From Chalara sp. BL73 (taxonomy: Eukaryota; Ascomycota; Leotiomycetes; Helotiales): 64,000 nucleotides of DNA. The translations under genes and the position numbers were made by a program. Where the stretch lies: positions 372,001 to 436,000 of the forward strand of contig CAKJVC010000012.1 of NCBI GenBank assembly GCA_918026815.1, in the 5' to 3' direction. Shown one piece after another: positions 17,342 through 41,466 of the stretch; the stretch's first letter is position 1; each line of letters starts with the position of its first letter. The notes beneath the pieces are model-generated. The model worked only from the letters and a program-made list of their open reading frames with translations. It had not been told where the DNA came from and did not search any database.

Positions 17342-19201
17342 TCACTGCTTCCCCGTCCTCGTCGCCACAAAATCTACGAGGTCGAAGAAACTTTTCTTGT
17401 ACCTCCGCTCCTGCGTCGTACGGTTCACCGTCTGAATGCCGAATCGCTGGCTAAAGTCGCCAAACTCCCAGTTATCAGCGAAGCTCCAGGCGAACGCGCC
17501 AGCGACGTGTACGCCGTCTTCCCAGATGGCCTTGAGCACCTCGCTCATGAAGCTGACATAATAGAGACTGCGTGGCGTGTCGAACAGCTGGTCCGACAGC
17601 GTCGCCTTCTCGGCCTCGTCAAACACCGGGTACCCGAACTCGGTGATGACGACGGGCTTGCGGAACGTGTTCCACAGGTAGTTGAGGTACGTGCGCAGGT
17701 ACGTCGGCGTCAGGTAGACGTACGAGTTGGAGCGGTAGCCGATGTTCCACCCCGTGCTCGTCAACGTGCTCTGCTCTACGCAGTACGGCCACAGCGGATC
17801 CGAGGCGTTGGCAGCGCACGCGGCGATCCCTTTAATGGGCGGCGTGATTACCGTCGCCGTGTATGGGTCGATGCCGAAGAGGTCGGCAGTCCCGTTGATG
17901 TAGGCCAGGTCCTCGGCTGTTAGCGGCACGTGGTTGGGGAAGGTTATTTTGAAGGCCTCTGGGTAGTCCTTGCCAAGAAAAATGGGGTTGGCGAAGGTGG
18001 CCAGCTGGTACTCGTTGAAGTGGTTGGCGGCATTAACGTCGTCCGGGTTCTCAGGGTTAAGGGGGACGCCAAAATTATCATTGAACTTGATGCTGACCTT
18101 GCCCGTGCCGTTGAGGACGTCGTGGTAGAAGTGGTAGAGGCGGGCGTGCGACTTGATGACCGTATCGATGCTCCTGGGGTCGTTGTTTGAGAACAGCAAC
18201 GGCTCATTGTACGTGAACCACACGGGCACGCGGTCTGCAAAATGCGTCATGACGATCTTCCCGTAGTTGACGAAGGCGTCCGCGAATGTTTCGTTGGCAT
18301 ACCCATCACTGCCCTGCCCGTTGCCGTAGAACTGGAGAGGCCCGTCAAAGTGCGTCAGCGTCGCGACAGGCTTCATCCCCTTCTCAATAACGAAATTGAT
18401 CAGGTCATCGTAGTGATCGAGCCCCTGCTGGTTGACGGGGCTTCCCTCCAGCACGAACGGCAAGATGCGCGTCCAGGCGATGGAGAAGGAATAGTACTTC
18501 ACCCCTATAGCGGCCAAGCGCTCAATATCTTGCTTGTACAAGTAGTAATTCTCGATCGTCACGTAGTTGGGCTCTCCGGTTACTCTCGTCAATAACAATA
18601 GATCCAAATTGGTCGGTGTCCGGCCCTCATCTGCAACGGCGCCCTCGATCTGGGCAGCGGACCCAGCGACACCCAACATAAAGTCATCAGGGAAGCTATA
18701 GCAGTCTTGGGGCTGAAAGTATTCAGGTGGAGGGAAGACGAGCTCGCTAGTAGGAACTGGGGTCGGCGCGACTGTTGTGGAGTATAACCCGCGAAATGTG
18801 AAATTTGGCAGTGCAGCACTCTCCCATCTCGCAGACCAAGCAACTTGCCCATAGGGGTCTTCGGAGTCGGCGGCCGTAGCCGTGGCATTAGGATCCCAGT
18901 TACCCCAGGCTCTAGTGGACAGGTTAGGGACGAGGTGGCTCAAAGCCTCATACGGTGGTGCGTAGGTCGTCGTCGGTCCTGGCGTTACTGAGGTTGCAGT
19001 CCGGACGGTCTCGGTCTGAGTGAAAGAGAACTGTGAGAACGAATAACTCGGACTAGCGGTCACATAGGAGCCATTAGAAGGGCATTGGGTACGGGTTACT
19101 GGTCCCTCTGCTGGCAGGTAGACTTGCTGGCCATATACAACTCCGGCATAGGAACCCAGAAACGCGAGCTCAAACAACATGTTGAACGCTCTCCTTCTCA
19201 T
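17342..19201 (-). CDS. Secreted GH1 beta-glucosidase
   Basis: A single-exon 619-residue glycoside hydrolase family 1 enzyme that removes terminal beta-linked glucose from glucosides. The first ~24 residues (a basic MRRR start, then a hydrophobic stretch ending VVYG) form a secretion signal, so it should act outside the cell. About 140 Thr/Ser/Pro-rich residues follow before the catalytic barrel. The barrel starts around QDCYSFPDDFMLGVAGSAAQ and includes YSFSIAWTRILP. The acid/base Glu333 lies in FTYNEP and the nucleophile Glu521 in ITEFGYP, where the usual form is TENG. AFAWSFADNWEF near the C-terminus is the aglycone-site W motif. It sits at the edge of the enzyme cluster and its upstream region carries a copy of the G-rich motif, which suggests it releases an aglycone for the neighbouring enzymes. 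Confidence 0.93.
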   Translation of the reverse strand: MRRRAFNMLFELAFLGSYAGVVYGQQVYLPAEGPVTRTQCPSNGSYVTASPSYSFSQFSFTQTETVRTATSVTPGPTTTYAPPYEALSHLVPNLSTRAWGNWDPNATATAADSEDPYGQVAWSARWESAALPNFTFRGLYSTTVAPTPVPTSELVFPPPEYFQPQDCYSFPDDFMLGVAGSAAQIEGAVADEGRTPTNLDLLLLTRVTGEPNYVTIENYYLYKQDIERLAAIGVKYYSFSIAWTRILPFVLEGSPVNQQGLDHYDDLINFVIEKGMKPVATLTHFDGPLQFYGNGQGSDGYANETFADAFVNYGKIVMTHFADRVPVWFTYNEPLLFSNNDPRSIDTVIKSHARLYHFYHDVLNGTGKVSIKFNDNFGVPLNPENPDDVNAANHFNEYQLATFANPIFLGKDYPEAFKITFPNHVPLTAEDLAYINGTADLFGIDPYTATVITPPIKGIAACAANASDPLWPYCVEQSTLTSTGWNIGYRSNSYVYLTPTYLRTYLNYLWNTFRKPVVITEFGYPVFDEAEKATLSDQLFDTPRSLYYVSFMSEVLKAIWEDGVHVAGAFAWSFADNWEFGDFSQRFGIQTVNRTTQERRYKKSFFDLVDFVATRTGKQ

Positions 19202-19535
19202 GAACTCGGGCCTGTGTCAACGAACTGCATACCTACATAGGCATCCCAGAGTACCAATTACTTATAGTTGCCATCGAAGAGTCCGTGATGCGGATAATTA
19301 CATTCGAGAACATTTCGTATACAATTTTCGGGGCATCTTCGGTGCTTAAAAAGCATCTTGGAGAGTACAATAACTATGCATGCTAGAGATGCTGTAACCG
19401 ACTTCCCCGCAAACCCCAACTTTTTTGTTCATTAACCAACCACATAGAGCTCCCCAGATTGAAGTGGAATAGTCGCCTACGCCCACGAACTAAGAACCCG
19501 GCACCTGTTTCCCCGCAAAATCCAGGATACCGCTA

Positions 19536-19544
19536 CACCCCCAC
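19536..19544 (-). promoter_or_regulatory. Shortened G-rich cluster motif
   Basis: On the minus strand this reads GTGGGGGTG, about 340 bp upstream of the GH1 start codon. It matches nine of the eleven bases of the core found in the other cluster promoters. Confidence 0.4.
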
Positions 19545-20685
19545 TTATGGCATACTATCGGCCAGATTACTCTCGTATTTCGTACTTCGTATTTCGAATT
19601 GGGGATGCGAATATCTTAGTTGGTGGTAAATATGTCTATATTTTTATATACTCAAGGCTTAATATTATAGGAATGCTAAAAACTGATGTAGGAGCCACCG
19701 ACCATTGATATATTACCGAAATACTTCATTATGCGTATGTTGCGAGGAGTGTCTAATTCGCTCGGCCTTTTTGCCCTGGCGGCTTCCTCGGTCATTTTCC
19801 ACAAGGACTTACCCTAGGATGTGGGGATAACTGATGCTTCCTCGATCGTATTTAGTGTTAGAAATGGGGAATCGTTAGGATGGTATCGGCGGTATTATTC
19901 CATGCAGTTCTGCCGATGAGCTCCAATTCTGCCCTTCCCCACCTTGGCATTCATACCCAGCAAGTGTCGGTGGGAGCAATTAGGAGAACTGTTTATATCA
20001 TGTCAGGATTGATTTTGATCTTCCACAGTGAGCGGGTCGAATCTTGTCACAAGTGTGGCACAACTAGGCTGTTTATCCGGATTTGCCGGAATCAAGCGGC
20101 CACTTCAGAAATGCATCTTCTTCTTTTTTTGGTTAAAGTTTGTCGTTGTCACAACTCTGTGACTAGGTAGTTGAGGTATTAGTGGCAAAATGCCATAATC
20201 GCGGCTCTGTATAGTCTCCGTGGATTGACCCTCCTTGGCATTTATCAAGCTTCATCCCACTCTTCTTGGTCGGGACATTGAGTAAGCTTCCTGCCACGCA
20301 GGTCCCATTTTCGCGGCGCTGAGCGGAACAAATTTTAACCTTAACTTTGTTCTGACGACAAGTGCTCTTGCCTCTCGCCGAGTACGGATTTTGGGTGAAC
20401 GATGAAAATTGCGTGACGGCGTTGAGACATAATGACTTCAGGTCAAGAAGGACCAGCTTCTCTTGCGCTCTTCACAGTCAGCCACCGGCGGGAAGTTCGT
20501 ATTCTCGGATTATACGCAAGCCAAGTGGTATACATGATCAACTACGTTTTTGCCACTCTCAGGTGCCGAACCAGATGCCTCCAGAAAGTGCTACCGCGGG
20601 GAAGATTATGATAGCCAAAATGACTGCTTAATCCTCGCTCCAAATGAGCATGTTACTGTGGAGGCCCCCTTCACGTGGTTTTGAG

Positions 20686-20700
20686 CCGGTGGGGGTGGGT
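20686..20700 (+). promoter_or_regulatory. G-rich cluster motif with CGG
   Basis: Reads CCGGTGGGGGTGGGT, a full GTGGGGGTGGG core preceded by CCG(G), 255 bp upstream of the FAD-ADC start codon. It is proposed as a site for the cluster's C2H2/Zn2Cys6 regulator. Confidence 0.5.
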
Positions 20701-20954: not shown

Positions 20955-23118
20955 ATGTCTCAAAACGGTGATATATCCGAAGGGGATAGGCCTCTAAAGG
21001 TATTGATAGCTGGAGGGGGAATTGGTGGTCTCTCAGCAGCCATATTTTTACGGCGCGCAGGGCATCAAGTTGAGGTGCGAAACCGTCCGTTTTGCTTTGT
21101 GTTACTACTGGTCTGGTTGCTGATATATAACCTAGATTTTCGAATCCTCCAAATTCTCCTCAGAGACTGGTGCTGCTATCCACATCCCAAGCAATGTCAA
21201 TGGTCTCCTACGAAGAATGGGAATGGTTCCGGAGGACCACGGAGCGAACCAAACAGAATGGGTGTCCGAATACCGGCCAAGCGGGGAGTTAGTGTTTTCG
21301 AAGGACGTCAGGCATTTGTCTTCCGTATTTCCCTACCCGTGGCAGCTCATACATCGAGTGGACCTTCACAATGCTCTGAAAGACATTGCTACCTCTCGGA
21401 GAGGGAAAGGAACTCCCGCCATTTTGCGCCTACGAAGTAAGGTCGTGTCCATCGACATTGAGGCTCCGTCTATAACACTAGATGATGGATCTACTCATGT
21501 AGGCGACCTCGTTATAGGAGCTGATGGCGTGCATTCAAAGCTTCGGGCTACAATAGCCCGGAACAAGGTTCCGCCCACTCCATCCGGCTCTAGTGCTTTC
21601 AGATTCATGATACCTACCGACGCAGTACGATCCGATCCCAGAACTGCCCACTTCACGGAGAAGACAGGAGAGTTGCGTCTCTTGTACGGAGCCGATCGCA
21701 GAATTGTGATATATCCATGCAGAAACAATACGTTACTGAATTTCGTGGCACTGCATCCTGATGAAGAGACGGAGGCTAACGCGGATGACTGGAATCAGGA
21801 CGCTTCCAGAGAAACCATGCTATCCTGCTTCACCTCCTATCCTGAAGACGTACAGTTGCTACTCTCTAAGGCATCACCGGAGTCAATCAAGTTATGGAAG
21901 CTACTAGACCACGATGAGCTAGGGAAAGAGAACTGGGTTCGCGGTAAAGCATGTTTGCTTGGAGACGCAGCACACGCATTTCTTCCTCACCAAGGCCAGG
22001 GCGGCGCTCAAGCTATAGAAGATAGTGCAGCCTTAGGCGCACTCTTTCCTTTAGGTACACGAGCCTCTGATATTCCTCAGCGGCTTCAACTCTACGTCCA
22101 GGCTCGTTACGACCGAGCGACACTTGTTCAAGACTTTACGCGGCAGGCAGCATTCAAAACGTCACGGGGAAACCATGGCGGTCAGGTCATTGACCCGATG
22201 CAGTTCACCGAAATAAACTTTACCCATGATGCACATGATCATGCAAAAGGCATCCTCCTTAGAGATCTGGCTAGGGCGTCCTCATATCAGCGTATGCCAC
22301 TCTCTTTTGGCCCTAGCCCAGGTCCAAGACAGGATCGTCATGGAAAGGCACGAGCTTTAGGAAATCCTACGTATAAGACGAGTTATATCACTTTCAGAAC
22401 ACATAAAAGCTATTTGGATTCTCTACTGCCGAGTGACGAGCTAATTATCAATGCTCCTGGCAGCTGGGCCACCGCATCGTTCTCAGTCACACGTCTAGGA
22501 AATCTGGACTGGCTTGGTGGGCGAGGCTACTCTTTCTTCGGGTTATATATCCATAATGTTGCCAGTAGCAATTCAGCACATCACAATGGCTCTGAGAATG
22601 GGCCTAACGGCACCAACAGCGAAACTGTGAGCGGGCATAAAATAAACGGCGACTTCCTCCCCGTACTTTTCGAGAACATGGCCGACCCGATCATCACCGG
22701 CAGGGAGGAACTCGGGTTCTCCAAGGTATTCGCGACGCTAGACGAAACCTCTTCAAGCTCCTCATTCGCCCTCAGCGCCGGCTGGCAAGGTACCGAGTTC
22801 TGCAAGCTGACCCTCCACGACTTGGTAGAGGCTCCATCCTCGGAGCCCATCCTCCAAGCACCAACTCTGCACTGGAAGGTCATGGCGTCGCATAAAAATG
22901 CCGCTCGCGTAGACGGCGGTGCCGTTGCCGTGCACCCCGCTCTTCCGGCGGCGGAACGGCAGAAGGAGTGGAAGGCTGGGTCAGCGGAGATCAAGTTCAC
23001 GGAGATTGAAGGCTGGGAGTTGGAGCGGGCGTTTCCGACCCTGGTGAATATTATCGAGGGGTTGAGGGAGATCAAGATTGTGGAGGTGCTCAGAAGTGGT
23101 ATTGTGGCTTCTGACTGA
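20955..23118 (+). CDS. FAD monooxygenase fused to acetoacetate-decarboxylase-like domain
   Basis: A 700-residue protein from exons 20955-21074 and 21136-23118; the 61-bp intron ends in AACCTAG. The N-terminal ~430 residues are a group A flavoprotein hydroxylase: GGGIGG at 20-25, GADGVHSKLR, and GDAAHAFLPHQGQGGAQAIED from residue 316. The C-terminal ~220 residues match the acetoacetate decarboxylase (ADC) family. FENMADPIITGREELGFSK includes Lys570 at the position expected for the Schiff-base lysine of decarboxylating members. A Ser/Asn/Gly-rich insert lies just before it. The two activities together suggest hydroxylation followed by decarboxylation or another Schiff-base step on one intermediate. 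The ADC fold also occurs in non-decarboxylating enzymes, so the second reaction is inferred. Confidence 0.9.
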
Positions 23119-23780: not shown

Positions 23781-25494
23781 TCAATTGCTGACTTGCGGTT
23801 GTTCCTTGGTATCCTCATGCACAATCCACATCGTTTTCTGTCTGAGCCAGGGGCCAGCAAAGTAAAGTGGGAGGCCCAGGCCCAGAACAGCCCACTCAAT
23901 TGCTGCCATTTCCCAGGTCATCCTGACCAAGCCCTTGCGTGCCTGCCAACTAGGCAAGCTGACTGTGATGGCAAAAGCCACCAGGTTCTTACCGGCATTG
24001 ATAAGCACCATTGCTTCTGATCCAGCTGCTGGCCAACCATCCACCATGACGGATAGGACAACGGAGGGGACAAAGGTTACAGAGGATACCTGTAAGGCGG
24101 CGCCAATGGCAGCGATGTATACACTGCGGCCCTCGGAAATTATGTAGGAGAACAGGAGAAGCCCAGGGGGAGCTAATATGAAAGGTATGATGAGGGCTGG
24201 CATGCGGTACTCTGGTACATGGAACTCGGAGCGAGATCTGCGACCCAAATAGCGGGAAAGCCAGTCGGTGAAGGGACCCGCGATGGGATACGCGACGAGA
24301 ATACCGAGAGCAGTGGCAAGGGAGAAAAGGCCAAGGCCGGAGGCTTTGAACAGGTATGGCGGCGGAAGGAAATATTGCGGCGAAAACGTGGAGATCATTA
24401 CAATGCTATTCTATGTCAGAGTAGATCCGCGTATCTGAGGCATGGAGAAATCAAGTATAAGTCTTACCCTCCAAGAAAGACCCCGTAAGAGGCGGCAGCA
24501 AAGAGAGCTTGTGGAACCAAGACGAAGCGGAATGGGAGAGAAAATCTCCGAAACCAGCTTATTACCCCCGCCGGTTCTGTGCCACGGTTTTTGAAGTTGA
24601 CGAGATCTTTCCAATATGAGCCTGCATATGGCGGGTTTAATCCAGATGCTGAGATGCCTGCGGGTGGGCTTCCTGCTTCCTCTTTATGTTCGATTGCATG
24701 GATTGCATCCTTATCGACTTCCTGAGCCGTCTCACCATCGATAAGAACACGTCGGTAATTTGTCTCTGGCAAGAAAAACAGGACGAGGAGCAGATTGGCA
24801 CTAATAAGGATAGCACATAGGATGAAAAACCATCTCCAGCCTTTAGCGGTGATGAGAAAACCAGCAATCATGGGCCCAACCTGTGCACCGCCAGAAAGGA
24901 AAAATGAGAACACGGCCATGGATGTAGCGAAGTAGCGCTCCATGTACATATCTACATAGCTGCTCGTTAGGACTCTGATGTGCTAAGGCTTCTGGGGCAT
25001 AAAAGAAGGCTCACCTGCAATGATGGCTGGGCCGAGTGACTCGACGCTTCCCGCGCCAAAGCACGCCACCACGCGCGACGCAGTAAGGCTGTCAAAAGTC
25101 GGGGCTTTAATGCTCCATATACAGCAACCCAAGAAGATGAGCATAGACGCGATGATGGTCGGCCTTTTCCCTAATATGGCCGCCGTCGGCGTCCAGATGA
25201 TGTTCCCAACGCCAAGCGCCATCACTGGATAGGAGACCGTGTCAGTCAACTTAGAGTTGCCGACGTGGAACTCCATTGCGAGTTCGCCGAACCCAGTTGT
25301 AATGCCTGCAGTATACATATTTCCAAGAAATATAAAGAAACAAACGTTGGCAAGAGTTAGATGTCTAATCCATGCTGGCCAGAGCTAGTGGTCAATCGGT
25401 TAGTAGGGGCTTGTGATAGAATATGACAGCCTGCGAAGCTACGCACTTTTGGATCGCCAGCAGTGCACTGGGCGAAGGAAACTGAGCGAGACAT
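23781..25494 (-). CDS. MFS transporter
   Basis: A 508-residue major facilitator with about 12 membrane spans, from four exons: 25494-25447, 25384-25015, 24951-24468 and 24405-23781. Introns are 25385-25446, 24952-25014 and 24406-24467. The first exon encodes only 16 residues, but the join restores GDPKLWPAWIRHLTLANV, the conserved entry to TM1. Later features are GNMYTAGITTGFGE, a motif A-like WTPTAAILGKRP, the AGSVESLGPAIIADMYMER helix, GPMIAGFLITAKGWRWFF (motif C region), and a second half ending TKEQPQVSN. The second half-site GPFTDWLSRYLGRRSR is also seen. By eye it fits fungal DHA1-like exporters or uptake carriers. The substrate is unknown; the context suggests the cluster's substrate or product. 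Confidence 0.92.
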
Positions 25495-26030: not shown

Positions 26031-26461
26031 CTACCATTCCCCTCCAATTGCATAGCTAAAAACGCCTGGAAGCACCTTCCCACCAGTACGGCCCCATAGC
26101 TGCGCGATCCCCTAAAATTGAGGTTCAGATTAGCTCGTATAGCGCCACAGCGCGATAGCTCGAGTTGACGTACCGCGTTAAGGGCCACACCATTGAACAT
26201 GACGGCAAGAAATACCTGCTCGATCCCGTTGCTCCCTCTTGGACGCTCAGCCAAATTCAAGTTCCGGTTGATGGGACGGTAATTGGGAATCCGATGCCGG
26301 TCACGTGGCCAATAATGAGGATTTCCAATTGCGGCTGATGTTTCGAAGATATTCAGCCCTGTGTCGATGTTACTGTTGTCGCCTGTCACATGTATCTCGT
26401 AGTCTTGTAGCGTATCATGGAGAGTGCTGGTTATGGGATTGTCCGTGGTTGTGACCGACAT
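26031..26461 (-). CDS. 122-aa protein of unknown function
   Basis: Two exons (26461-26174 and 26111-26031) around a 62-bp intron with donor GTACGT, branch-like GCTAATC and acceptor TTTTAG. They give a 122-residue product ending YAIGGEW. Without splicing the frame runs on for 157 residues of less protein-like sequence, so the spliced form is preferred. There is no signal peptide and no recognised domain. The C-terminal 40 residues are Gly-rich (GRTGGKVLPGVF). It shares a divergent promoter with the aldehyde-dehydrogenase-like gene and lies between enzymes of the cluster, so a small cluster-specific enzyme or accessory protein is possible. No function is assigned. Confidence 0.6.
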
Positions 26462-26856: not shown

Positions 26857-28499
26857 ATGTCCTCCAGAAACAATCTTGAACAGCTGCGCGCTGCTGTGGT
26901 CGATGGCAGAACAGAAAATATTCGGTACAGGCAAAAAGAGCTTCAAAGTTTGCATACTAGCCTGCGCCAATATGGCGCCACAATAATTTCCAGCATCTCG
27001 AAGGACTCGGACGCTCTATCGCCTAAGATTACCTTTGAGGCGGAAGCAGAATATTGGCTAGCTTTGAATGCGGTTGAAAAGCAATTCGAATTGCTCGACT
27101 TCGAAGTCTTGGCCAAGCAAGAATACTTGGTTGCGAAGGGGTTTGATAATAGGGATAGAAGGGTCGGTAAGGGCCTGGTAATAATCAGACCTACGACACA
27201 CACGAGGTTTTATTCCATTATAATTGCGCTTGCGGCGGCTATTACTGCCGGGAATTGTATTGCTTTAGAGGTGAACTTGCACCTGAAGCTACCTACAAGG
27301 TATTTTACTGATTAGAATTGCAAATAGCTCGCAGACACAATGTTGAATGTCGATTCAGTTCTGAAAGAGCTTTTGCCCCAAGCATTAGACCCTGACACAT
27401 TCGCCATTACAAACGCTGCTCTCGGAAACCCATCTGACGCGTTCCTTGTTGATCAAACGAGTAACCAATCAGTTTCGTCAATCAATCAACTCTCCTCGAA
27501 TACTTCTCTCCGCATAGTCGCGGTCGTTGATCGGACGGCGGACATTGAAGCTTCAGCGAAAGCTATTGTTACGGCGCGCTTCTCGTTTCAGGGAACGTCA
27601 TCATACAGCCCGGACTTGATCATAGTCAATGGCTTTATCAAGAATGAGTTCGTAGAATCGTGCTCACGTTATGCGGGAAAATTCTTTCCCAACAATGAAA
27701 AGACAACACGGGCACGAAACAATGATTCGCTGGCCATCAAGAAAAGATTGGCGGAAGCTGAAGAGAAACACCAAGTTTCTCAATCTGGCTCGGGCAGCTT
27801 TAGGATTGTGGATATCCATGACAGGTCAGGATCTGCTTTTCCGCCATGCAGGATGGGTGTATTGACAACGTTTAGGAACTCTCCCATAGCCAAGCTGAAG
27901 TTTAGCGGCTTTTATCTTCCTATCATAGCAGCCACCAGCCTCACTGACAGCATTAACATTGGCAATTCAGAGTATATCCCGCTCCCACCCAATTTCCAAT
28001 ACTTCTGCTAACCACACTTCTCAGCTCTAATCTTCTCGCCCTCTACACCTTCTCGGACGCTCCAACAGCCAAGTTTCTTTCTCAGCACTTCAATGCCATA
28101 ACCTCATACTCCAACAGCATCCCTTCCCACCTGCTCGTTGGACCCGCAGCACCCATCACGCCTCTTCCCCCACCACCTAGCCACAAGTATAGCGCGGAGA
28201 TGTTCTCTTCACCACGCCCACAGTACACATCCCGTCCTCCGGCGACTGATGACCTGACCCTGATCGATAACGTGCTAAGCGGATTTCACGACCCCACAAG
28301 GCGAGCCAAGACTTTACAACAGCTAGGAGATAAGCTCGAGGGAAAGAAGAAGGCAGTTCTACAGCCGAAGAAAATCCAGCCCAGGGGCGACCAGCTTGGT
28401 TTCTTTGAGCAAGGCCTAGTGCTGGGAGCAGGTATATTCTTGACCATGATCGTTTCGACGGTAGGAGGCGGCATTTGGTTCTTGAGGAAACATCTTTGA
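26857..28499 (+). CDS. Aldehyde-dehydrogenase-like protein, catalytic residues lost
   Basis: A 510-residue ALDH-fold protein from exons 26857-27270, 27328-27971 and 28025-28499. Introns are 27271-27327 and 27972-28024; the second restores NSDSNLLALYTFSD, a conserved C-terminal ALDH segment. It resembles the fungal membrane-anchored fatty-aldehyde dehydrogenase group (Hfd1-like): the last ~25 residues are a hydrophobic span (LVLGAGIFLTMIVSTVGGG) followed by FLRKHL. The catalytic Cys region, normally GQxCxxPD, reads GTSSYSPD with Ser230 in the Cys position. The LELGGK segment carrying the general-base Glu is replaced by an Asn/Ser-rich sequence without that Glu. The frame is intact over three exons, so this looks like a selected non-catalytic or altered protein rather than a dead gene. 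Confidence 0.85.
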
Positions 28500-28942: not shown

Positions 28943-29995
28943 TCAATTTACCTTCCCCTGCTTCCCGCCTACCTCCGGCCATCTTCCTAGCGTAAACTGG
29001 CTATTGCACATATTGCGCAGCTCCCAGTCCTCAGCACCAAGTTCCGCCGGCGTTCCCACATCTTCAAAAGATCCGCAGAGCCCCGCGACGAACATGGCGG
29101 CCATGAAATGGTCATCGGTAGCATGGGCGTCACGATACTTGGGAATTTTCATGAGCCTCGTCATGGCGCGGCGCAGATCGGGGCCGCTGTTCTTGGTAAT
29201 GGCATCCTCGAACTCTTGTCTGAAATCGAGCATCTCGTTGTCCGGAGGCTTCTCCATCGCGAAGTTATCTGGGAGCAGAAGCCTTAAATTAGCATTTCTC
29301 GAGGACCGCGTGCGCAGAAAGGCAGGGAAAAAAAAATCGAGTTTGTGAAGGAATGGGGGAAGGATGTCTTACCCCGGAATTGCAGCATCTGGTACCAGTT
29401 ATTTCGGTAGAGGTTATGTACCGCGCCGCCGGTGCCAATGAACAGAACTTTCTCTTTCCTTAGCGGCCGAAGCGCAGAGCCTACCTTCACGTGGTAATGT
29501 GGATCATATCCGGCATTCATGCTGACGATTGTGGTTGGGGGACTTCCGTTAGGAAACATGCGGATCAGGATAAGGTAAGTGTCGTGGATCCAATCGAACT
29601 TGTCGTTGAGCTTGGCCTTCAGCCCGGCTTTCCGCAGAAGGTCAACACAGCGAGATGCCATTGGGATGTCGGGATTCAGCTCATAGTTGACATATTTGGA
29701 TGGCTCAACGTAGGCGACAGGAGACTTGGCTGGCGAGGGATTGGCTGCAACTTCGATCTCATCGCCGGACGTGGCCCAGTGCGCACCCTGAGAGGGAGTT
29801 GTTAGTGGTAAGGTCTTGGGCGCGGAATTGGATTTCGATATGGTGGTTTACCATCATGACAATGTGCTCGATTCCGTTTGCGAGGGCTATGTCACCACAT
29901 TTCTTCCAGTAGCTGGCAGAGGCTGATTGCTCGCCTAGCATCATCGTTGAGCCATGAGAAAAGAAGTGTATGGGCGTCAATGTGCTCTGCGACAT
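28943..29995 (-). CDS. LigB/DODA-type extradiol dioxygenase
   Basis: A 294-residue member of the LigB superfamily, DODA (4,5-DOPA extradiol dioxygenase) branch, which opens catechol-type rings with O2 and non-haem Fe(II). Exons are 29995-29852, 29787-29373 and 29268-28943; the introns are 64 bp and 104 bp. Conserved histidines are visible: His14 in FFSHGST, His51 in MGAHWATSG, His145 and His147 in DPHYHVKVG, and one in GTGGAVHNLYRNNW. The final exon gives DNFAMEKPP and a family-typical acidic and helical tail ending GKQGKVN. It has no signal peptide and should be cytosolic. It is divergently paired with the cluster regulator. Ring opening here is the strongest hint that the cluster handles a catechol or other vicinal diol. 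Confidence 0.92.
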
Positions 29996-31045: not shown

Positions 31046-34000
31046 ATGGAAATGCTGCTGGACGCGATGACAAGAATGTCTGATACGACCATGGCCCGGA
31101 ATCATTCGCTTGATGCAGCCGCCGGACCTCTTTCGCTGCCACACGGCACAGGCGGATCTAGCGACGCTCTGGAGGCAGAAGACGGATTCCACAGCATTGA
31201 GGTTGGTGGGGCATCAATCCGCAAACGACAACGACGAGCTTCCCAGCCAGTGGCCACGCATCAATGTCGGATCTGCCAGCGCTCCTATGCAAGGGCAGAT
31301 AGGCTCAGTCGGCACATGAAGACGCATGAGAATGCCCGGCGCTACGTCTGTCAGCGCTGCCAGAAAAGCTTCAACAGAGCGGATCTTCTAACTCGTCACA
31401 TGACCACACACACTCGAAACGACGAAGCAGAGTTTTATCCTAACCATACGGGTGTTCATCGATCCGATAGAGCTGGCCAAGCGTGTATCGCTTGTGCAAC
31501 TGCCAAAGCCCGTTGTGAGGATCAGAAGCCATGTCGACGATGTAAAACGAAGAATATAACGTGCCAAGTGACGGGCCAGACCTCCAACCAGACATCATAC
31601 GAAGCCCAATGGCAAACGATAACCAACCAAGGACTACAAAACTACCCGACGCGGTCGGCGAATGATAATATGGATCATACAGCCGAGCAGCAGGTAATTG
31701 CTTTGAGACAACATCAACAACATACAGTCCCAACCGACAGTGCTCCTCTGTCTGAAACGCAGTCAAGTGCTCTGAACGTTAGTACGAATCCCCATATTGT
31801 ATCTCAGGTCAACCAGGTTACAAATCATAATGAGGCGGTGCACCATGGTGTCACCGATGCGATACTGGCGCAGCGGATGCTTGAACCGCCAGAAACGTAT
31901 GAAATGCCATCCGCCGCTATGGACGGGAATCAGCTGGTCTTCGACAATATCATGAACGAGATCATGTTCACGCCTAATGCACCTGGCTTCAACAATCAGT
32001 TCCTTGATATTAACTTCCATGACTTCACCTTTCCCAACGAGCAATTGGATACAATTCTTGAGCAAACTAATCATGACGAACAAACAATTATCGAGGCATC
32101 AGGCCAGGCACCACGACCTACCCGCGATGTGCGTGCTGGTTATGCTGCTTTCACGCGTTCTCCGTGGCTCTGGACTCCAGTACCACGAGATGCTGTTCTT
32201 GGGGAAGGAGAGAACCTGACGTTAGACGAGGAAAGTATATCCTCGGTGCTGACACCTAAATCCACAAATCTAATGCCTACTGTTCCAAGTTGTGGGTATC
32301 CCACGATTACATATTCAATGCGTGATAAAATGTATCATCTCGTCTCAACAATGGACAGATACTCGAGTCGAGTACCCGGTTTTCCTTCTCTTGATATAAT
32401 CAATTATGTAGTGGAAGCTTTTTTTGTCAGGCACAGCTATCAAATAGATAATTGGATCCACGTACCAAGTATCATGCTGTCAGATATCCGCCCTGAATTT
32501 GTATTAGGTCTTGTCGTCGCTGGTTCAACTGTTATATCAGAGCCTGCAATATGGAAAATGGGACTCGTACTTCAGGATGTAGTCCGTATTAAACTGGGGG
32601 AATCGGTAGGTAGCTTAGTTCAGAGCTGTGTAGTACATTGACTGAGCTTTGCAGTGGGAGCGGAAGAATAGTACCACGCGTGATTACCAACCTATGCAAG
32701 GATTTCTGCTTGCATTGGATGCAGGACTATGGAGCGGGTTTCAGAGGCAGATGGAACTCGCAGAGAGTTTTGCGCAACCCTTAATTACGGTAAAAAAATT
32801 GAAATCCCTACTAAAATATCTCTTACCAGCTTAAACACTAACAGAAAGCAGATGATGCGACGTAGTGGTATGTTTGGAGCGACCGCCGACAGCCAGGCTC
32901 TTGTTCCTCATGAATCCGATGTTGGCCAAATACTTGAAACAAAGTGGAAGAAGTGGGCACAGCGGGAAACATTCAAAAGGTGAGCAAGAAGACGGTGTTG
33001 TATAGTCTTGTAACACTAACTTGGTATGAAGGCTCGCCATTCATCTACTTCTGCATGATACTCGAGCGTCAATTGCTCTTCAAAAATGCCCTTTGATATC
33101 CGTCACGGAGATCACAATTTCCTTACCAGCATCACGGACCCTTTTCATTGCTGGCTCTGCCTCTGAGTGGAAATCTTCTTTCCTAAAACACAAAGCTTCT
33201 CTGTTCACCTCCCACATACGAATACTCGAGGTCATGCACGACATCAGTATTCTAGATGATTTACACACCGAGGTTGATATAGACCTCTGCTACACAGCTG
33301 CAATCCATGGCTTCTGGTGCCAGATCTGGGCGTTTCAAGAATCTCGCAGATTTCATGCTATTGACGAGAATAGAGATTCCGTGCATCGCCTATGGCTCGT
33401 AACACAACAGCGCGAAGTATACCAGCAACTCCAAGCGTTCGAGAAGCATTTGCTCAACACTCCTGCTAGTCGATCCGAACTACTCATCATAGCCGAGCTT
33501 CTATTAATGATCCTCCACATATCTCCCGACGAACTACAACGTTTTGCGGGTAAGTACGGCGAAGAGGCAGCATCGCAGGCCCTGGTCAGCCTCGAACGTT
33601 GGTTTAATAGCGAGAACTCTCGACGCGCAGTCTGGCACGCGGGGCAAGTATTTCGTTGGGCATTACTGATGCCACCTGCTGAATTACGAGATTTTTATGC
33701 CATAGCTGTATACTTTGCCAGCCTTGCACTGTGGACATTTGGACATCTATCAAGATCTAGGGACTCCATCAGCGGAGCTTTGGAAAGCCAGGATCATTCC
33801 TTAGCAGTACTTCCAGAGGCCGCCTCTCCATTCCTTATCATCAACGGCGAGGAGAATCCTGGGACACGGTCTTTTCTAAATGGAAGGCAAACTACTCTCA
33901 TCTTGAGGCCTGTACCCACAAGGCTTCAATCTGCTGGCCTCGAGCACCAGCATGACACTTTCATTCGACTCGACAACCCAAGCGCAGTGCTACAGATCGC

Positions 34001-34184
34001 GCGGGACCTATACCGAAATAATTTCCCATTCGAGGGCGATGCACTACCACCCCTTGTGGAAAGTATGGGAAACTTAATTAGAGACCTTGGAAATTTACCC
34101 GACTCTCGATTTTCTAGATGCGCAAGTCCAGTCGACAAAGTGAGCATTTCGCAAGAACATTTAAATGCGTCCGCAGCGAAATAA
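31046..34184 (+). CDS. C2H2 plus Zn2Cys6 transcription factor
   Basis: A 991-residue regulator from exons 31046-32605, 32655-32789, 32852-32979 and 33032-34184 (introns of 49, 62 and 52 bp). Two C2H2 fingers come first: HQCRICQRSYARADRLSRH and YVCQRCQKSFNRADLLTRH. A fungal binuclear cluster follows at once: ACIACATAKARCEDQKPCRRC. A long Gln/Asn/His-rich middle leads to the fungal_trans-type helical domain (YHLVSTMDRYSSRVPGFPS, SEPAIWKMGLVLQD, RRSGMFG, HLLLHDTRASIALQ). The start is the first ATG in the open frame. A short upstream exon from the ATG at 30915 (MFSDPDSVPYS..., donor GTAAGC) is an alternative. Its place inside the enzyme group and the G-rich sites around it make it the likely pathway-specific activator. 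Confidence 0.88.
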
Positions 34185-34522: not shown

Positions 34523-36556
34523 ATGGCCTACGAGACTAACAAGATTATCGATCTTCTCGAGATCACGGAAGACAACGAGAACGGTTTGATTTTTGAAAAG
34601 AATGTCTCCATCCCTCTCAAAGCTTCTTCCCTCCCTGTAAGATGTAATGTATATCGCCCTATACCACAAACGCCAAACCGAAAATTTCCCGTGCTGGTGA
34701 CCTATGGGCCATATGGGAAGGATATTCCTTATGACAAGTAAGTGTTCCGGATTTTGCACTGTAGTGCTAGTCCATCCAATATCATAGTTAAAGCTCATGG
34801 GATGTATAGCTTTTTCGCAAAATCCTTCTCTGAGGTGAATCCGGAGCACAAGAGTAAATACAGTGCCTGGGAGACCCCGGACCCGGTATTCTGGACATCA
34901 AAGGGATATGTGATTGTTCGCTGTGATGAGAGAGGCTTGGGACAGAGTCCTGGGCTGCTAGACACCATGTCTCGGGGCACAAGTGAATGCTTCTTTGACG
35001 TTGTCGAGTGGGCTGCGGAACAGCCTTGGTCATCTGGCAAGGTCGGATTACTGGGAATTAGTTATTATGCCGGTATATATCGCTTTCGTCTACGCATCAG
35101 CGCTCGTGAGCTAACCTGCGTGAACAGGCAGTCAATGGCGTGTGGCGGCGCGCAGGCCGAAAGGCTTGGCAGCAATCATCCCTTGGGAAGGGATGACGGA
35201 CTACTATCGTGACCGCTGCCGACACGGTGGCATATTCTCGGACGGCTTCATTCAATTCTGGTGGAATCGGCAGGTTATCATGAATCAGTATGGAAGACCC
35301 GGCCGTGCCGCTTCGAGATGGGGAGAAGACACGATCGAAGGAGATCTGCCAGAGGAGGTCCTCGCTCAGAACCGGAATGATCAAAATATCGACAACGAGA
35401 ATAACAGATTTCTCGATGATCCATACTACGCCTCAAAGGAATTCAACCTGGAGGACATTGAAGTGCCGGTTTTGTCTGTGGCCAACTGGGGCGGGATCCT
35501 GCTGCATCTAAGGGGTATGTCAAAAGTAGCCTGAATTGACTTGGCTCGTGCTTACACCTCTTCTAGGTAATGTTAATGGGTACTCATGGGCGGGATCAAA
35601 GTTCAAATATTTGCGATTCATAACCGGTCGTCACGATTTGCCTTTCTATTACAAAGAGGAGGTTGAAGTACAAAAGTCATTCCTCGATGCTTTCCTTAAA
35701 GACGAAGACACGGTCGGATGGTCCGTTCCCGGGAAAGTGTCGCCTGTAAGCGTGGTTCTCCGTAAAGGGAATGTCGGATTCAATAATGCCGAAGCAGAGA
35801 AGGTATATGAGAGACGAAGCGAGAAGGCATGGCCATTGGAAGGAACTCAATACACGAAGTTCTACCTCACGCCGGAAAAGCAGCTTCAAGTACAGGCGCC
35901 GATACTTGATTCACCGGTCCTATCTTACGAAGCACTTGGGACTATACAGGATCCAAAGATTGTGCAATTCACAAGCGCGCCATTCGAAGAAGATACAGAG
36001 ATCACTGGTCATGTAACTGCACATCTCAATATTTCCACGACACCAGATTCGCAATCCATTGATCCAGAAAAAGACATCGATGTCTTCCTGACTTTGCGTT
36101 ACATTTCTCCAGCTGGCACAGAAGTCTTCTATACCGGTACAGCAGGAGATCCTGTTCCCTTGTCTAAGGGCTGGCTGCGCGTATCGCTTCGCAAGGTCGC
36201 CACGGATCATCCTCGCCACTCATCCTACCAACCACACCGCGAGTATCGCTCTAAAGATGTGCAGGAGGTCAAGCCAGATGTGCCATATGCGTTTGATGTT
36301 GAGATCTGGCCAACAAATGTTGTTGCTGAGAAGGGTGGACGAATTGTATTGGAGGTTTCCTCTGGTGACACCCAGGGCTGTGGGATTTTCACCCATAATA
36401 ACGAGAAGGATCGGTAGGTTTTGCTCATATAGACCCAGTTTCATGTTGCTAACCACTCCTGAAAGGTCCAAAGCGAAATTTTCCGGCTTGAACAACATCC
36501 ATTTTGGAGATGGGAAGGAAAACTATGTCACCCTGCCAATTGTGCCTCGCAGATAG
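34523..36556 (+). CDS. CocE/NonD family serine hydrolase
   Basis: A 600-residue alpha/beta hydrolase of the X-Pro dipeptidyl-peptidase S15/CocE group. It is encoded by five exons (34523-34737, 34810-35072, 35128-35514, 35567-36413 and 36466-36556), and all four introns were fixed by frame. The N-terminal catalytic fold includes YGPYGKDIPYD, VRCDERGLGQSPG and the nucleophile elbow GLLGISYYAG. GMTDYYRD and GRHDLPFYY (candidate catalytic Asp and His region) follow. The C-terminal half (ITGHVTAHLNISTTPDS, DVFLTLRYISPAG, WPTNVVAEKGGRIVLEV) is the jelly-roll domain of CocE-type esterases. No signal peptide is seen. The likely reaction is ester or amide hydrolysis of a cluster intermediate; the substrate is not readable from sequence. 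Confidence 0.92.
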
Positions 36557-36698: not shown

Positions 36699-37271
36699 CT
36701 ATATCTCATCTGATTCTCCACTTTTCCTCACGCCAATCATTCCGCCCAGATCCTCCTCCAACTTCTTCCCGCCCTCCAACTCCACGGGCTTCGCCTCCGA
36801 CAAAACATACAGCATCCGCGACCAGCTCGTGGCGCTCGTGTTCCGCCACGCATGATTCGTCCCCCGCTGTACGCACGTGTCGCCGCGCTTCAAAACCCTC
36901 GTCTCCCCACCGTCAAGAATCAGCTCCACCTCGCCCTCCAGCACAACGCCGTAGTCCAGGCTGGTGGTCCGGTGCATCGGCGAGGTCTGCCCGGGTTGCA
37001 TGTCCACGATGCGCAGCACCGTGCCGCCTGGGATCACGAGCCCCGGCGGCGCAGACAGGTAGCTGCTGTAGGAGCTGATATCGGCGGGCTTAGATAGGTC
37101 CGCTGGGAACGCCGACGTGCAGTACCCGAGGAAGAACTTCGCGCCTCCGGCATCGGTCCATGATGCGCTGGTTGGGATGGTGCTGTCTATGGTTGCGGTG
37201 CCGTCTGCGGCATGCGTTGTTATGTAACGGTTCAGTGCTGGGAGTGGGCTGGGGTCGGTGTGGTTGGCCAT
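36699..37271 (-). CDS. Small cupin-domain protein
   Basis: A 190-residue protein with a single C-terminal cupin barrel. The typical core runs through PGQTSPMHRTTSLDYGVVLEG, then VELILDGGETRVLKRGDTCVQRGTNHAW. The His/Glu metal set of enzyme cupins is only partly present (one His in MHRT, none directly with DYG, and NHAW), so both a metal enzyme and a binding or isomerase role remain possible. The ATG at 37271 (MANHTDPSPLP) is preferred because the open frame upstream of it looks like 5' untranslated sequence. It is convergent with the hydrolase and divergent from the fumarylacetoacetase paralogue, sharing that promoter and its G-rich motif. Confidence 0.85.
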   Translation of the reverse strand: MANHTDPSPLPALNRYITTHAADGTATIDSTIPTSASWTDAGGAKFFLGYCTSAFPADLSKPADISSYSSYLSAPPGLVIPGGTVLRIVDMQPGQTSPMHRTTSLDYGVVLEGEVELILDGGETRVLKRGDTCVQRGTNHAWRNTSATSWSRMLYVLSEAKPVELEGGKKLEEDLGGMIGVRKSGESDEI

Positions 37272-37889: not shown

Positions 37890-39205
37890 ATGTTCGCCTC
37901 TCACTTCTCCATTCGCAATATTCCATTTGGAATTGCAAGTAGTGAAGGGCATCCGAAGCACTCAGCAGCTACTCGAGTCGAAGATATAGTCATATTTCTC
38001 GATGAACTTGCAAAGTATGGCTTTTTAAAATCACTGCCAGCTGCAGCAATAGATTCATTGTCTCAGGTAGGTTTCTGCCTTATGGAATCATCCACATAGC
38101 GGCATATGCTTATCTGAATATAACAGCCCGTACTCAACGACTTTGCCGCCCTACCAATATCCGTGCATCAACAAACCCGCAGTATCCTTCAGTCACTGCT
38201 CACCGAACATCCGTTAACATCTCTGCCATTAGGAACGACTGAGGCACTCAAGGATGTAACTGTGCACCTGCCAGTATTCTGCCGGGACTTCACCGATTTT
38301 TCGTGCTCCAAGGACCATGTGTTAAACGCCGGCGAGGCGATACAGAAGAATCGCTTCCTGCCCCCTGGTTTCCTACACTTTCCGATAGGTTACTCTGGCC
38401 GAGCATCTTCTATTGTTGTGTCCGGCACACCAGTCGTCAGGCCAAAAGGGCAATTCCGAAATGCTAGCGGGGATGTGATATATGGCCCAACAGAGCAGCT
38501 AGACTACGAGCTGGAACTTGGCTGTATAGTTGGTAAGCCAAGCGAACACGGCAAAAGTGTGGCAAGCAAGGATGCCGACGAGCATATATTTGGGCTAGTT
38601 CTTGTAAATGACTGGAGTGGTACGTTTGATATGCTCAAGCAGATGGGGGTTACTGCTAAACTATCGGTACAGCACGAGACATTCAAGGCCTGGAAATGCC
38701 TCCACTTGGCCCACTTAACGGGAAAAGCTTTGCGACCTCTATTTCGCCTTGGGTTATCACCTTGGATGCGCTAAAGGAATCCGCGGTCGAAGGACAGCCA
38801 CGCGAACTACAAGTAGCACCTCACCTTGCTGACCCTAACCCGAATAACAGCTATGATATAAGTCTACGGGCTGATCTGGTAACAAACCTGGGTCCTACCA
38901 CTATATGCGAGACGAACCTCAAGACAATGTACTGGAGCTTCCGGGACCTGATAGTACAGCTTACAAGCAATGGATGCAATATAAATACGGGCGATCTGTT
39001 GGCAACGGGAACGATTTCGGGCTCGACAGATGAAAGTCATGGATGTTTATTAGAGCTTACTAGTGGTGGCCAAGCAAGCTTCTCCGTGAGGGAGGGAGGA
39101 AAGAGGGTGTACCTTGAGGACAGTGATACAGTACAGATATCCGCATTGGCTTCTAATGGTGTTGGATTTGGAGAATGTAGTGGCAAGATTCTTCCAGCTC
39201 TATAG
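37890..39205 (+). CDS. Fumarylacetoacetase paralogue, His to Ser in active site
   Basis: A 400-residue FAH-family protein from exons 37890-38066, 38127-38619 and 38673-39205. The second intron (38620-38672) restores NDWSARDIQGLEMPPLGPLNGKSF, a hallmark of true fumarylacetoacetases. Metal ligands and substrate residues are kept: DFTDF, LDYELELG, NDWSARDIQ, GKSFATSISPWV and GTISG...LLELTSGG. The segment IGYHGRASS, whose His is the catalytic base in characterised FAH (His133 in mammals), reads IGYSGRASS; the codon at 38394-38396 is TCT (Ser149). FAH cleaves a C-C bond of beta-diketo acids in tyrosine catabolism. This copy is diverged and probably works on, or only binds, a cluster intermediate made after ring opening. 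Confidence 0.92.
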
Positions 39206-39861
39206 AATGAGATACTGCTTGACTTAGACAAAAACTGTACGATGGCAACAATGATGAAGTCTTCTACGCTAATCGCAGCGATAATTAAGCTAAGGAGAGT
39301 GAGATCTGTAGTGATGGTGCTCTAGCTAACCAAAGCTCTGACTAAAACCAGGGATAGCCTAACTGGTGAAGTAGTTCCTGTTTCTCTAGTTGATCGAAAA
39401 CAGAAATCACCCAAAGTTATCAGTACAAAACCACTTAATAGCACTGTTACAAATATTACTGCTGATAAATGGTCTTTAGCACTGCTTCATGACTGATTGT
39501 AGAAGTGTCTAGTATATGCTGTCAGATACCATGAGACATAAGTGAGCCCAATTCATCTACCTCCAGCAACATCTCTCCAAATAGATTTATAATCCCACGC
39601 CAGAGATTGGTGGTCGGGTGGGGGTGGGGTAAGGAGTTGAGGGTATGAATAGCGGGGTGTGGATCTGGGGTTGACATTCCCTATCTGAACTGCCGTTACA
39701 ATTCCTAGATCGGGCCGAGTTTAACCTGATCTGCGGACGGTGCTCTGCTTCCCCTCACCCAAACCCTCAACTTAGAAATTGATAGGAAACTTAAGTTGGA
39801 TCATAACGAACACGGTTTTTCAAATGCATGTTCAAAAGCTCATGCTCTAGTTGCTGCAATC
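39206..39861. promoter_or_regulatory. P450 promoter region
   Basis: About 0.65 kb upstream of the P450 start codon, with the G-rich motif at 39615-39629. No gene was seen. Confidence 0.45.
39615..39629 (+). promoter_or_regulatory. G-rich cluster motif with CGG
   Basis: Reads CGGGTGGGGGTGGGG, the full core with CGG at its 5' side, 233 bp upstream of the P450 ATG. Confidence 0.5.
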
Positions 39862-41466
39862 ATGTTGACCGACGCACTAGACCCCTCTGTGTCCTGGCTC
39901 ATTCTTGTTGCTATCTCCTCCTATATAATTTTCGTTCTAATACGTGCAGCTCTTGATCCCCTCCGCCATATACCTGGGCCTTTTCTGGCAAGACTCACTC
40001 GATTATGGTATCTTTACAGGATCTACAAAGGAGATTTCGAACTGACAAACGTTGCACTTCATGAGAAGTACGGCCCAGTCGTTCGCATAGCTCCCAACGA
40101 GTACTCTATCGACGATGTTGAGGCCGCCAAAATAATCTATGGGCATGGAAGCAACTTCATCAAAGTTTGTAACATCTCTACTATGAAAACTTTCGAAGCT
40201 TGGGGATGTAAAGTAACGTTTTTGTTCTGACTTTTGCAGGCTCCGTGGTATCTAGCATGGATGCCTCCAGATCCTAAAAAAGCATCTCTCTTTTCGGATG
40301 TAGATGCGCATCGTCATGGAATACAACGACGCAAATTTGCTTCGGCTTACTCGATGAGCAGCCTTGTTGGCTATGAGCCATTCGTCAACAATTGCACGGC
40401 GCTCTTCAAGACCAGGCTCCAAGAGGTCGCCGCGGTCGGAATTAAGGTTAATCTAGCCCATTGGTTCCAATGTTATGCTTTCGACGTCATAGGAGAGGTC
40501 ACATTTGGTCATCGATTTGGTTTCCTTGATAGCGGCAAAGATGAGCCTGGGGTTTTCGCGGCAATAGATACTAGAACTGTCTACAGTACACATATTGGAG
40601 TGTTTCCCGCTCTCCATCGTATCTGCTTCCCTTTCCTACCGAGCACTGGCGGCCACGGATATGTTGGCAAGTACACTAATGAACAAATAACGGCACGCCA
40701 AAAAGAGCTCCAGAACCCCGAGGAAAAAGAACGAGATGGCGCACCAGATTTCGTATCCAAGTTCCTCCACATCCATGAACAGAATCCGACGAAAATGACG
40801 AAACTAGACATTTTCACAGCCTGCCAGAGCAATATTGGTGCTGGGAGTGATACGACAGCCATCACTCTGTCTGCAATTTTGTACTATCTCATAAAAAATC
40901 CGGCTACTTACAAACGTCTGCAAGATGAGATCGATGAAGCTACAATGCAGGGTAAAATTTCGGACCCAATCACATTCAAGGAGGCGCAGCAACTCCCCTA
41001 TCTTCAAGCCGTCATTAAAGAAGCTCTCCGCCTACATCCAGCTACTGGCTTGCCTCTGGCCCGCGTCGTACCGGCTGCCGGTGCAACGATCGCCGGGATC
41101 GATTTCCCTGGCGGCGCTACTGTTGGGATCAACGCATGGGTTGCCCATCAGAATACGTACATCTACGGAGCAGACGCACATATCTGGCGACCCGAGCGGT
41201 GGTCGGAATTTGAGCGGGACGGGAAAGGCGCGCAGGTGGAAGGTTATTTCTTCGCTTTTGGCATGGGAAGTCGGACATGCATCGGCAAGAACCTGAGTCT
41301 CCTCGAGATCAGCAAGCTGATACCGCAGCTGCTGAAGGCCTTTGATTTTGTACTCGACGAGGAGCTACAAGATACGAAGTGGAAGTCGCTGAGCAGATGG
41401 TTTGTTAAACCAGAGAACTTTTATGGGAAGGTGCATTTGCGACAGCGGCATGTGGCGGAGAAGTAA
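39862..41466 (+). CDS. Cytochrome P450 monooxygenase
   Basis: A 509-residue membrane-anchored P450 from exons 39862-40164 and 40240-41466. The 75-bp intron has the uncommon donor GTTTGT and acceptor TTGCAG, and the join gives NFIKAPWYLAWMP. An N-terminal hydrophobic anchor (WLILVAISSYIIFVLI) precedes the Pro-rich hinge HIPGPFLA. The I-helix oxygen motif is GAGSDTTAI, the K-helix ExxR is EALR, and the haem loop FGMGSRTCIGKN contains the thiolate Cys448. The sequence looks like the fungal pisatin-demethylase/benzoate-hydroxylase-like group (CYP57/CYP53-type neighbourhood), but the exact family needs a search. It should act at the ER on a hydrophobic or aromatic substrate and forms the right edge of the cluster. 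Confidence 0.93.

Follow-up and report, generated by a model that had tools for sequence, protein, structure and literature searches.

Clusters of degradative genes built around an aromatic ring-opening dioxygenase (ARD) have reportedly been described in fungi by Gluck-Thaler and Slot in 2018. Two better known systems also bear comparison: the fungal homogentisate (tyrosine) cluster with FahA, in which an FAH-type hydrolase acts after oxygenolytic opening of the ring, and bacterial HpaD, HpaE and HpaG, which place dioxygenase, aldehyde dehydrogenase (ALDH) and FAH-fold families side by side. We report the analysis of a gene cluster at positions 17342-41466 of a 64,000 nucleotide stretch, hereafter the window, of the fungus Chalara sp. 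BL73 (GenBank assembly GCA_918026815.1, contig CAKJVC010000012.1, positions 372,001 to 436,000). Its central members encode a fusion of an FAD hydroxylase with an acetoacetate-decarboxylase-like domain (FAD-ADC), a LigB/DODA-type extradiol dioxygenase (LigB) and a fumarylacetoacetase-like paralogue (FAH), and the cluster is best read as a variant on this ARD type of fungal degradative cluster.

This ring-opening route is seldom credited to fungi, yet fungal DODA enzymes, AlfB and a 3-hydroxyanthranilate cluster are in print. ARD and salicylate hydroxylase (SAH) have been used as anchors of degradative clusters (PMC10735191), and the 3-hydroxyanthranilate cluster of Ascomycota comprises 3HAO, ACMSD and AMSDH and is induced by salicylate in Aspergillus terreus (PMC7842363). 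In 'cluster 2' of Grosmannia clavigera (ULs 3999-4004) an S15 X-Pro peptidase, an unknown protein, a ring-opening dioxygenase, a PutA dehydrogenase, a cupin and an SDR stand in one run; the cupin was overexpressed on lodgepole pine phloem extract (p = 0.03) and three of the ULs occurred only in those libraries (PMC3091685). In Bipolaris cookei the genes Bc_04816, Bc_04818, Bc_04819 and Bc_04820 are induced in planta on sorghum. Their region takes in a galactonate dehydratase, an ALDH (67 vs 3 reads), a ring-opening dioxygenase (79 vs 2) and an S15 peptidase (78 vs 0) (PMC5722872). The benzoxazolinone-responsive region FVEG_03394-03402 of Fusarium verticillioides, in which FAH, an FAD protein and a cupin are induced and ALDH is not, may be a related module; it also has a transcription factor and a transporter, and LigB and CocE are not listed in Table 1 of that source (PMC10512309).

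An original prediction, made from the window alone, had called this combination of genes one that it did not recognise. No paper naming the gene set as one pathway, or giving its substrate, was found in the literature accessible to our search. The combination is not entirely new to print: a similar set was tabulated for G. clavigera in 2010 and three like-named members for B. cookei in 2017.

Recurrence of the cluster in other fungi and in its own genome

The core genes form a recurring cluster that is found together in other ascomycetes. For FAD-ADC, LigB and FAH we searched the proteins of other fungi, took the best 120 relatives of each with one name per 90% cluster, and tallied the organisms named in at least two of the three lists, in which locus tags are given for many. 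FAD-ADC and LigB share a contig in 10 of the 14 organisms present in both of their lists, FAD-ADC and FAH in 12 of 22, and LigB and FAH in 9 of 15, as against 0.54, 1.08 and 0.73 expected for a second gene placed at random in a genome of an assumed 40 Mb. The FAH list extends down to 47% identity, so some of the misses are probably not orthologues.

Among the 13 tagged pairs, from 11 organisms, 12 lie 1-8 tags apart: the distances are 4, 2, 6, 4 and 8 in the five tagged cases of FAD-ADC and LigB, 1, 4, 8, 6, 1 and 6 in the six of FAD-ADC and FAH, and 2 for LigB and FAH, with an exception in Bogoriella at 136. The tags of Malbranchea and Oculimacula were read as positions, those of Neocucurbitaria VM-36 were divided by ten, and the draft six-figure tags of Oidiodendron, Tricladium and A. 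karnatakaensis were excluded from the distances. In Elasticomyces LTR50 the FAH, LigB and FAD-ADC genes are tags 5520, 5522 and 5524, and in Botryotinia globosa and Pseudogymnoascus 24MN13 FAD-ADC and LigB are exactly four tags apart, matching the window. The LigB core gene is clustered with other genes and the association recurs across genomes, as in an ARD-type degradative cluster of fungi.

The source genome spans 58.66 Mb in 199 contigs, the window being C9:372001-436000 in our contig numbering. Twelve window proteins, the eleven of the cluster and a flanking FAD monooxygenase, were compared by tblastn with 50 kb around a locus on C156 and 40 kb around a second locus on C9. A stretch of under 20 kb, C156:32-51.5 kb, holds counterparts of seven of the eleven, namely FAD-ADC (33-43% identity), the regulator (25-59%), CocE (67-74%), cupin (56%), the ALDH-like protein (32-46%), LigB (67-77%) and a 122-aa protein (30%, E 3e-17). 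The homologue of the 122-aa protein, at C156:51046-51495, lies beside the C156 LigB gene and its model shares the same terminal ...GGEW; the regulator homologue adjoins the C156 FAD-ADC gene. There was no match to GH1, FAH or P450 in the C156 locus (tblastn). The C156 LigB is 99% identical to a protein of Bisporella sp. PMI_857, and the FAD-ADC of the window is 96% identical to a protein of the same organism (28 substitutions and no gap over 700 residues); this strain is a near relative, its genus belonging to the Helotiales of the Leotiomycetes. The region C156:28000-51500 has accessory genes of its own, for a histidinol-dehydrogenase-like protein, a BBE-like flavoprotein, two SDRs (these by eye) and an MFS transporter.

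A third locus, at C9:198-212 kb and ~180 kb from the window cluster, holds five families, some of them shortened: LigB (38-41% identity), cupin (49%, at 201.9-202.5 kb), CocE (41-68%, its C-terminal part unmatched), FAH (31-39%) and an FAD monooxygenase in which the matches end before the ADC domain. The shortened CocE and the ADC-less FAD monooxygenase may represent decay or an older form. An ALDH-like gene leaves a faint match there (E 0.008), and by eye a diverged ALDH-like open reading frame (ORF) can be seen at C9:198.6-199.8 kb, which the genome searches with the ADC profile and the ALDH-like query did not list. FAD hydroxylase, LigB, cupin and CocE are common to the three loci. Among the best candidates scored, the ADC profile and the ALDH-like query each find two places in the genome, the window and C156; for cupin and CocE, the closest further genes lie on C156 and at C9:202-207 kb. 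The joint conservation check attached to the original prediction has been run, and neither the linkage in other fungi nor the copies in its own genome refute the reading.

Other candidate copies were rejected. The LigB genes on C62 and C133 do not look like paralogous clusters because LigB itself is the sole window protein with a match (E <= 1e-5) in the 20 kb around each, and near the FAH paralogues on C60, C169, C129 and C16 there is, besides FAH, just a 28% P450 match at C60. Two further CocE relatives, C7:1469700-1471378 and C77:330041-331720, have equal lengths, near-equal scores and an identical stop pattern, as expected of a gene duplicated not long ago or of two haplotypes left uncollapsed in the assembly.

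Genes of the locus and their active sites

The eleven neighbouring genes of the families originally claimed are all present at 17342-41466, as placed by ORFs and by intron models from a small splice-aware script; ten of the eleven proteins have Pfam support and the 122-aa protein has no match. The features are as follows.

17342..19180, minus strand: GH1 beta-glycosidase, 612 aa (ORF and model; Pfam GH1, 269 bits)
20955..23118, plus strand: FAD hydroxylase - acetoacetate-decarboxylase-like (ADC) fusion, 700 aa (exons 20955-21074, 21136-23118)
23781..25318, minus strand: MFS transporter, at least 470 aa (models; MFS_1; first exon or exons upstream of 25318 provisional)
26031..26461, minus strand: 122-aa protein (model; no Pfam match)
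26857..28499, plus strand: ALDH3-like protein, 510 aa (model; alignment to human ALDH3A1 3sza)
28943..29995, minus strand: LigB/DODA-type extradiol dioxygenase, 294 aa (exons 29852-29995, 29373-29787, 28943-29268)
31046..34184, plus strand: C2H2 (two fingers) and Zn2Cys6 transcription factor, ~968 aa (model with some introns provisional; Pfam)
34523..36417, plus strand: CocE/NonD (S15-type) alpha/beta hydrolase, ~571 aa (model; Pfam Peptidase_S15 and PepX_C)
36699..37271, minus strand: Cupin_2 protein, 190 aa (model; Pfam Cupin_2)
37890..39205, plus strand: fumarylacetoacetase-like (FAH) paralogue, 400 aa (exons 37890-38066, 38127-38619, 38673-39205; FAA_hydrolase N and C)
39862..41466, plus strand: cytochrome P450, 509 aa (model; Pfam p450, 234.9 bits)
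15322-16643: extra FAD_binding_3 monooxygenase, just beyond the left edge of the eleven-gene set and 698 bp from GH1

The left flank holds this FAD monooxygenase and a malic enzyme, the right flank an adenosine deaminase and, farther out, an acetyl-CoA carboxylase; no tRNA was found. No PKS, NRPS or terpene synthase was seen among the Pfam matches of the eleven proteins or the flanking ORFs read, a whole-window profile scan not having been made, and the Pfam content of the eleven proteins fits the catabolic type of cluster, lacking a backbone synthase, that had been proposed. The regulator is there too, as a single large C2H2 and Zn2Cys6 protein (two C2H2 fingers, Zn_clus and Fungal_trans), which corrects its earlier description.

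In FAD-ADC the Pfam domains FAD_binding_3 and ADC lie within one 700-aa protein. The nearest named PDB relatives of the FAD domain are a decarboxylative vanillate 1-hydroxylase (8x38, the nearest), a '4-hydroxybenzoate decarboxylase' and salicylate hydroxylase; against the salicylate 1-monooxygenase model TIGR03219 the protein scores 141.2 bits, below the equivalog cut-off of 446.35. The ADC domain, the only model to which VIA-align was applied, has the acetoacetate decarboxylase superfamily fold and the Schiff-base lysine, Lys570, which is retained in 105 of the 120 best relatives.

LigB has 48.3 bits to Pfam LigB (cut-off 26.3), and this score and its conserved metal and catalytic histidines (H51, H116, H147, H172 and H240 in 120/120 best relatives, H14 in 113 with 7 gaps) place it among the class III extradiol dioxygenases. 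Its closest solved structures by sequence and fold are DODA (plant DOPA dioxygenases), which is the nearest fold, and bacterial YgiD. It resembles DODA but is not filed as DODA proper, scoring 73 bits against the cut-off of 233 for the 4,5-DOPA dioxygenase equivalog PRK10628.

The FAH paralogue reaches 367.1 bits against the fumarylacetoacetase equivalog TIGR01266, below the cut-off of 375.3. In what we take to be the mouse numbering of the catalytic, metal and pocket sites, D126, H133, E199, E201, D233, R237, Q240 and K253 are all kept, as they are in 119-120 of the 120 best relatives. The pocket residues Y128, R142 and Y244, which are Tyr, Arg and Tyr in 4qku and 5ti1, are Ser, Gln and Met in the window protein; among the best relatives Met is found in 120/120 and Ser in 117/120, the R142 site being variable. 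Both domains of a fumarylacetoacetase are present, and the HpaG models fit the protein only weakly. It was rejected as the canonical FAH of the tyrosine pathway, the WEY-type gene sitting instead at C60.

Class 3 aldehyde dehydrogenases have a catalytic Cys and the Glu of an ELGG motif. The ALDH-like protein claimed originally exists (Aldedh 23.1 bits, cut-off 23.0), but its catalytic residues are absent: in alignment with human ALDH3A1 (3sza) Ser replaces the Cys and the Glu-bearing ELGG stretch is missing, and the C156 paralogue has Pro at the Cys site. To judge from these losses, no known chemistry would let it work as an aldehyde dehydrogenase. By eye, it has a C-terminal hydrophobic stretch. 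CocE scores 161.3 bits against the NCBIfam model for CocE/NonD, TIGR00976 (subfamily cut-off 66.3), and the Ser of its GISYYA is aligned to GVSYLA of 3ib3, the Asp and His of the triad being placed with low confidence. The structural relatives of the cupin are 3es1 and 8x0u.

Proposed pathway and alternative explanations

We predict, with a probability of roughly 0.55, that the cluster breaks down a hydroxybenzoate-like plant phenolic by extradiol (meta) ring opening, for catabolism or detoxification; the plant origin of the substrate is suggested by analogy with like-named clusters expressed on plant material. After uptake of a plant phenolic acid the FAD domain would replace the carboxyl by a hydroxyl, giving a catechol from a hydroxybenzoate-like acid, as its nearest PDB relatives suggest, and LigB would cleave the catechol adjacent to one hydroxyl. 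With Cys and Glu missing from the ALDH-like protein, no semialdehyde dehydrogenase step by the cluster is predicted, and the ring-fission product would bypass the dehydrogenase, being isomerised or hydrated, perhaps by the cupin, to a diketo acid that the FAH paralogue would split by C-C hydrolysis. The ADC domain may use a Schiff base on Lys570 to decarboxylate or aldol-cleave an intermediate keto acid, in which case the fusion would couple the first and late steps. CocE probably hydrolyses an ester or amide, in an incoming conjugate or a lactone intermediate; the steps of cupin and CocE are the least certain. The C2H2-Zn2Cys6 protein likely turns the cluster on in the presence of plant material, and for the ALDH-like protein a non-catalytic role as a membrane-tethered partner is likely. 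Hydroxylation, extradiol cleavage and then C-C hydrolysis or decarboxylation, as first proposed, fit the families and their conserved active sites; the glucoside hydrolysis that was put before them is unsupported and, with GH1 lacking a counterpart in the paralogous clusters, is a guess.

Several points weigh against this reading. The searches in other fungi covered three of the eleven genes (FAD-ADC, LigB and FAH), equal-sized contigs were taken as a proxy for the same contig, and tags were readable as positions in 11 organisms. The pairs are split over different contigs in 4/14 (FAD-ADC and LigB), 10/22 (FAD-ADC and FAH) and 6/15 (LigB and FAH); Bogoriella is tallied as linked though its LigB and FAH are 136 tags apart, and the sole listed LigB of Bisporella PMI_857 is of the C156 type and on a different contig from its FAD-ADC. 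The C156 cluster is without FAH, so that C-C hydrolysis by FAH would not be obligatory; Val occupies what we take to be the position of the second lysine of bacterial ADC; and the post-cleavage conversion and the FAH, ADC, CocE and regulator steps are predicted from family chemistry only. In the Grosmannia study five of the six members of cluster 2 are 'ns', the cupin alone being significant, and the authors saw no conservation of the cluster in Aspergillus, Fusarium, Magnaporthe and Neurospora (PMC3091685). An Aspergillus niger strain with a deletion of 17 ring-cleavage genes, LigB types included, still grew on gallate.

A link to gallate had been raised by the A. niger extradiol dioxygenase NRRL3_08632, which is up 232-fold on deletion of the tannin repressor tanX and dispensable for growth on gallate (PMC10512348); it was rejected on the growth of the 17-gene deletion, and the tanX response gives a hint as to the regulation of that gene.

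Compatible with a catabolic cluster, and in our judgement as apt to be right as wrong, is the view that a conserved core from FAD-ADC to FAH has edge genes of unrelated function, namely GH1, the FAD monooxygenase at 15322 and P450. GH1 has an N-terminal signal-like stretch (by eye) and 6m4e as its best solved relative, with the NEP and TEFG glutamates, which we presume to be catalytic, aligned. Neither GH1 nor P450 has a counterpart inside the C156 or C9:198-212 kb clusters (tblastn, own genome), the only P450 match near the C9 copy, at 185.6-187.2 kb, being at least 11 kb outside that cluster, and GH1 lies nearer the outer FAD monooxygenase (698 bp) than FAD-ADC (1774 bp). With no counterpart in the two paralogous clusters, the membership originally claimed for the glucosidase and the P450 is unsupported, while that of the MFS carrier is weakly supported by a match of 24-37% identity flanking the C156 cluster at 28-30 kb. 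Paralogous clusters vary in their accessory genes in any case (the SDRs and the histidinol-dehydrogenase-like and BBE-like proteins of C156), so the absence of GH1 and P450 there is weak evidence.

We consider it unlikely that this is a small tailoring or pigment cluster, in which LigB would open a self-made catechol (DOPA-like or polyketide-derived) to make a pigment or antibiotic, as in the cases of DODA and betalains or AlfB and allantofuranone. Such a role would agree with the structures closest to LigB, those of bacterial YgiD and the plant DOPA dioxygenases, and with the P450, MFS and pathway-type regulator, and the extradiol-type dioxygenase AlfB works in a fungal biosynthetic cluster (PMC12105029). 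However, none of the eleven proteins is a backbone synthase, prenyltransferase or methyltransferase by Pfam, the recurring partners are FAH- and ADC-type enzymes, the like-named clusters of two other fungi respond to plant material, and LigB, at 73 bits, falls far short of the 233-bit DOPA-dioxygenase cut-off.

A classical, bacterial-style meta pathway for catechol or homoprotocatechuate, with the semialdehyde oxidised by ALDH and then tautomerised, decarboxylated, hydrated and split by an aldolase, would account for LigB-type dioxygenase, ALDH-like and FAH-fold proteins occurring together as in HpaD, HpaE and HpaG, but is quite improbable given an ALDH-like protein without catalytic Cys and ELGG Glu (Pro at the Cys site in the C156 paralogue), an FAH with both fumarylacetoacetase domains and a weak match to the HpaG model, and a set of eleven proteins in which Pfam showed no tautomerase, hydratase or HpcH-type aldolase; through the ALDH of the cluster itself it is ruled out by the missing catalytic residues. 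Chance neighbourhood is ruled out by contig sharing above expectation and the recurrence of seven genes elsewhere in the genome.

Degradation of a plant phenolic may also be extended, tentatively and with rather more doubt than belief on our part, to a eukaryote-specific meta pathway, in which the hydroxylase-Schiff-base decarboxylase fusion, a DODA-type dioxygenase and a Met-type FAH would replace the bacterial dehydrogenase-tautomerase-hydratase-aldolase route, the membrane-tethered ALDH3 pseudoenzyme and the new small family would be conserved non-catalytic partners, and the several copies per genome would be matched to different plant phenolics. An extradiol cluster that has a LigB enzyme and a defined set of partners offers a candidate by which catabolic meta cleavage can be tested in ascomycetes, including plant pathogens and root associates. 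It would help to explain the role of the widespread fungal LigB family, would give a use for FAD-ADC fusions, currently named at most salicylate hydroxylase, and would show a conserved dead ALDH within a catabolic cluster.

Comparison with known systems

The bacterial homoprotocatechuate pathway (HpaD, HpaE, HpaG) likewise combines a class III extradiol dioxygenase with an FAH-fold enzyme, whereas the window has no active aldehyde dehydrogenase, an FAH of the fumarylacetoacetase type and the FAD-ADC fusion. With the homogentisate cluster our locus has in common an FAH-type hydrolase following ring opening; the canonical WEY-motif FAH is, however, at C60, and the FAH of the window belongs to a Met-type subfamily beside LigB. 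The 3-hydroxyanthranilate cluster is a catabolic cluster of fungi that joins ring cleavage to a decarboxylase and a semialdehyde dehydrogenase, but its ring cleaver is 3HAO rather than LigB, a working dehydrogenase is listed, and FAD-ADC, CocE and FAH are unlisted there.

Two further clusters are similar by gene name. The B. cookei region Bc_04816-Bc_04820 similarly has ALDH, ring-opening dioxygenase and S15 peptidase genes, as matched by their names, but includes a galactonate dehydratase, and its induced cupin (Bc_05113) and salicylate hydroxylase (Bc_09836) are distant by gene number. In cluster 2 of G. clavigera the S15 (CocE), unknown, ring-opening dioxygenase, PutA-type (ALDH) and cupin genes are adjacent; matched by names only, it differs in having an SDR where the window has FAH, and FAD-ADC does not appear in its table.

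The ARD clusters share with the locus a ring-opening-dioxygenase core gene among other degradative genes and predicted plant phenolic substrates, SAH being another anchor class. They differ in that here the partners are resolved, as the FAD-ADC fusion, an ALDH3-like pseudoenzyme, CocE, cupin, FAH and a new small family, and that three copies, two of them partial, are found in one genome.

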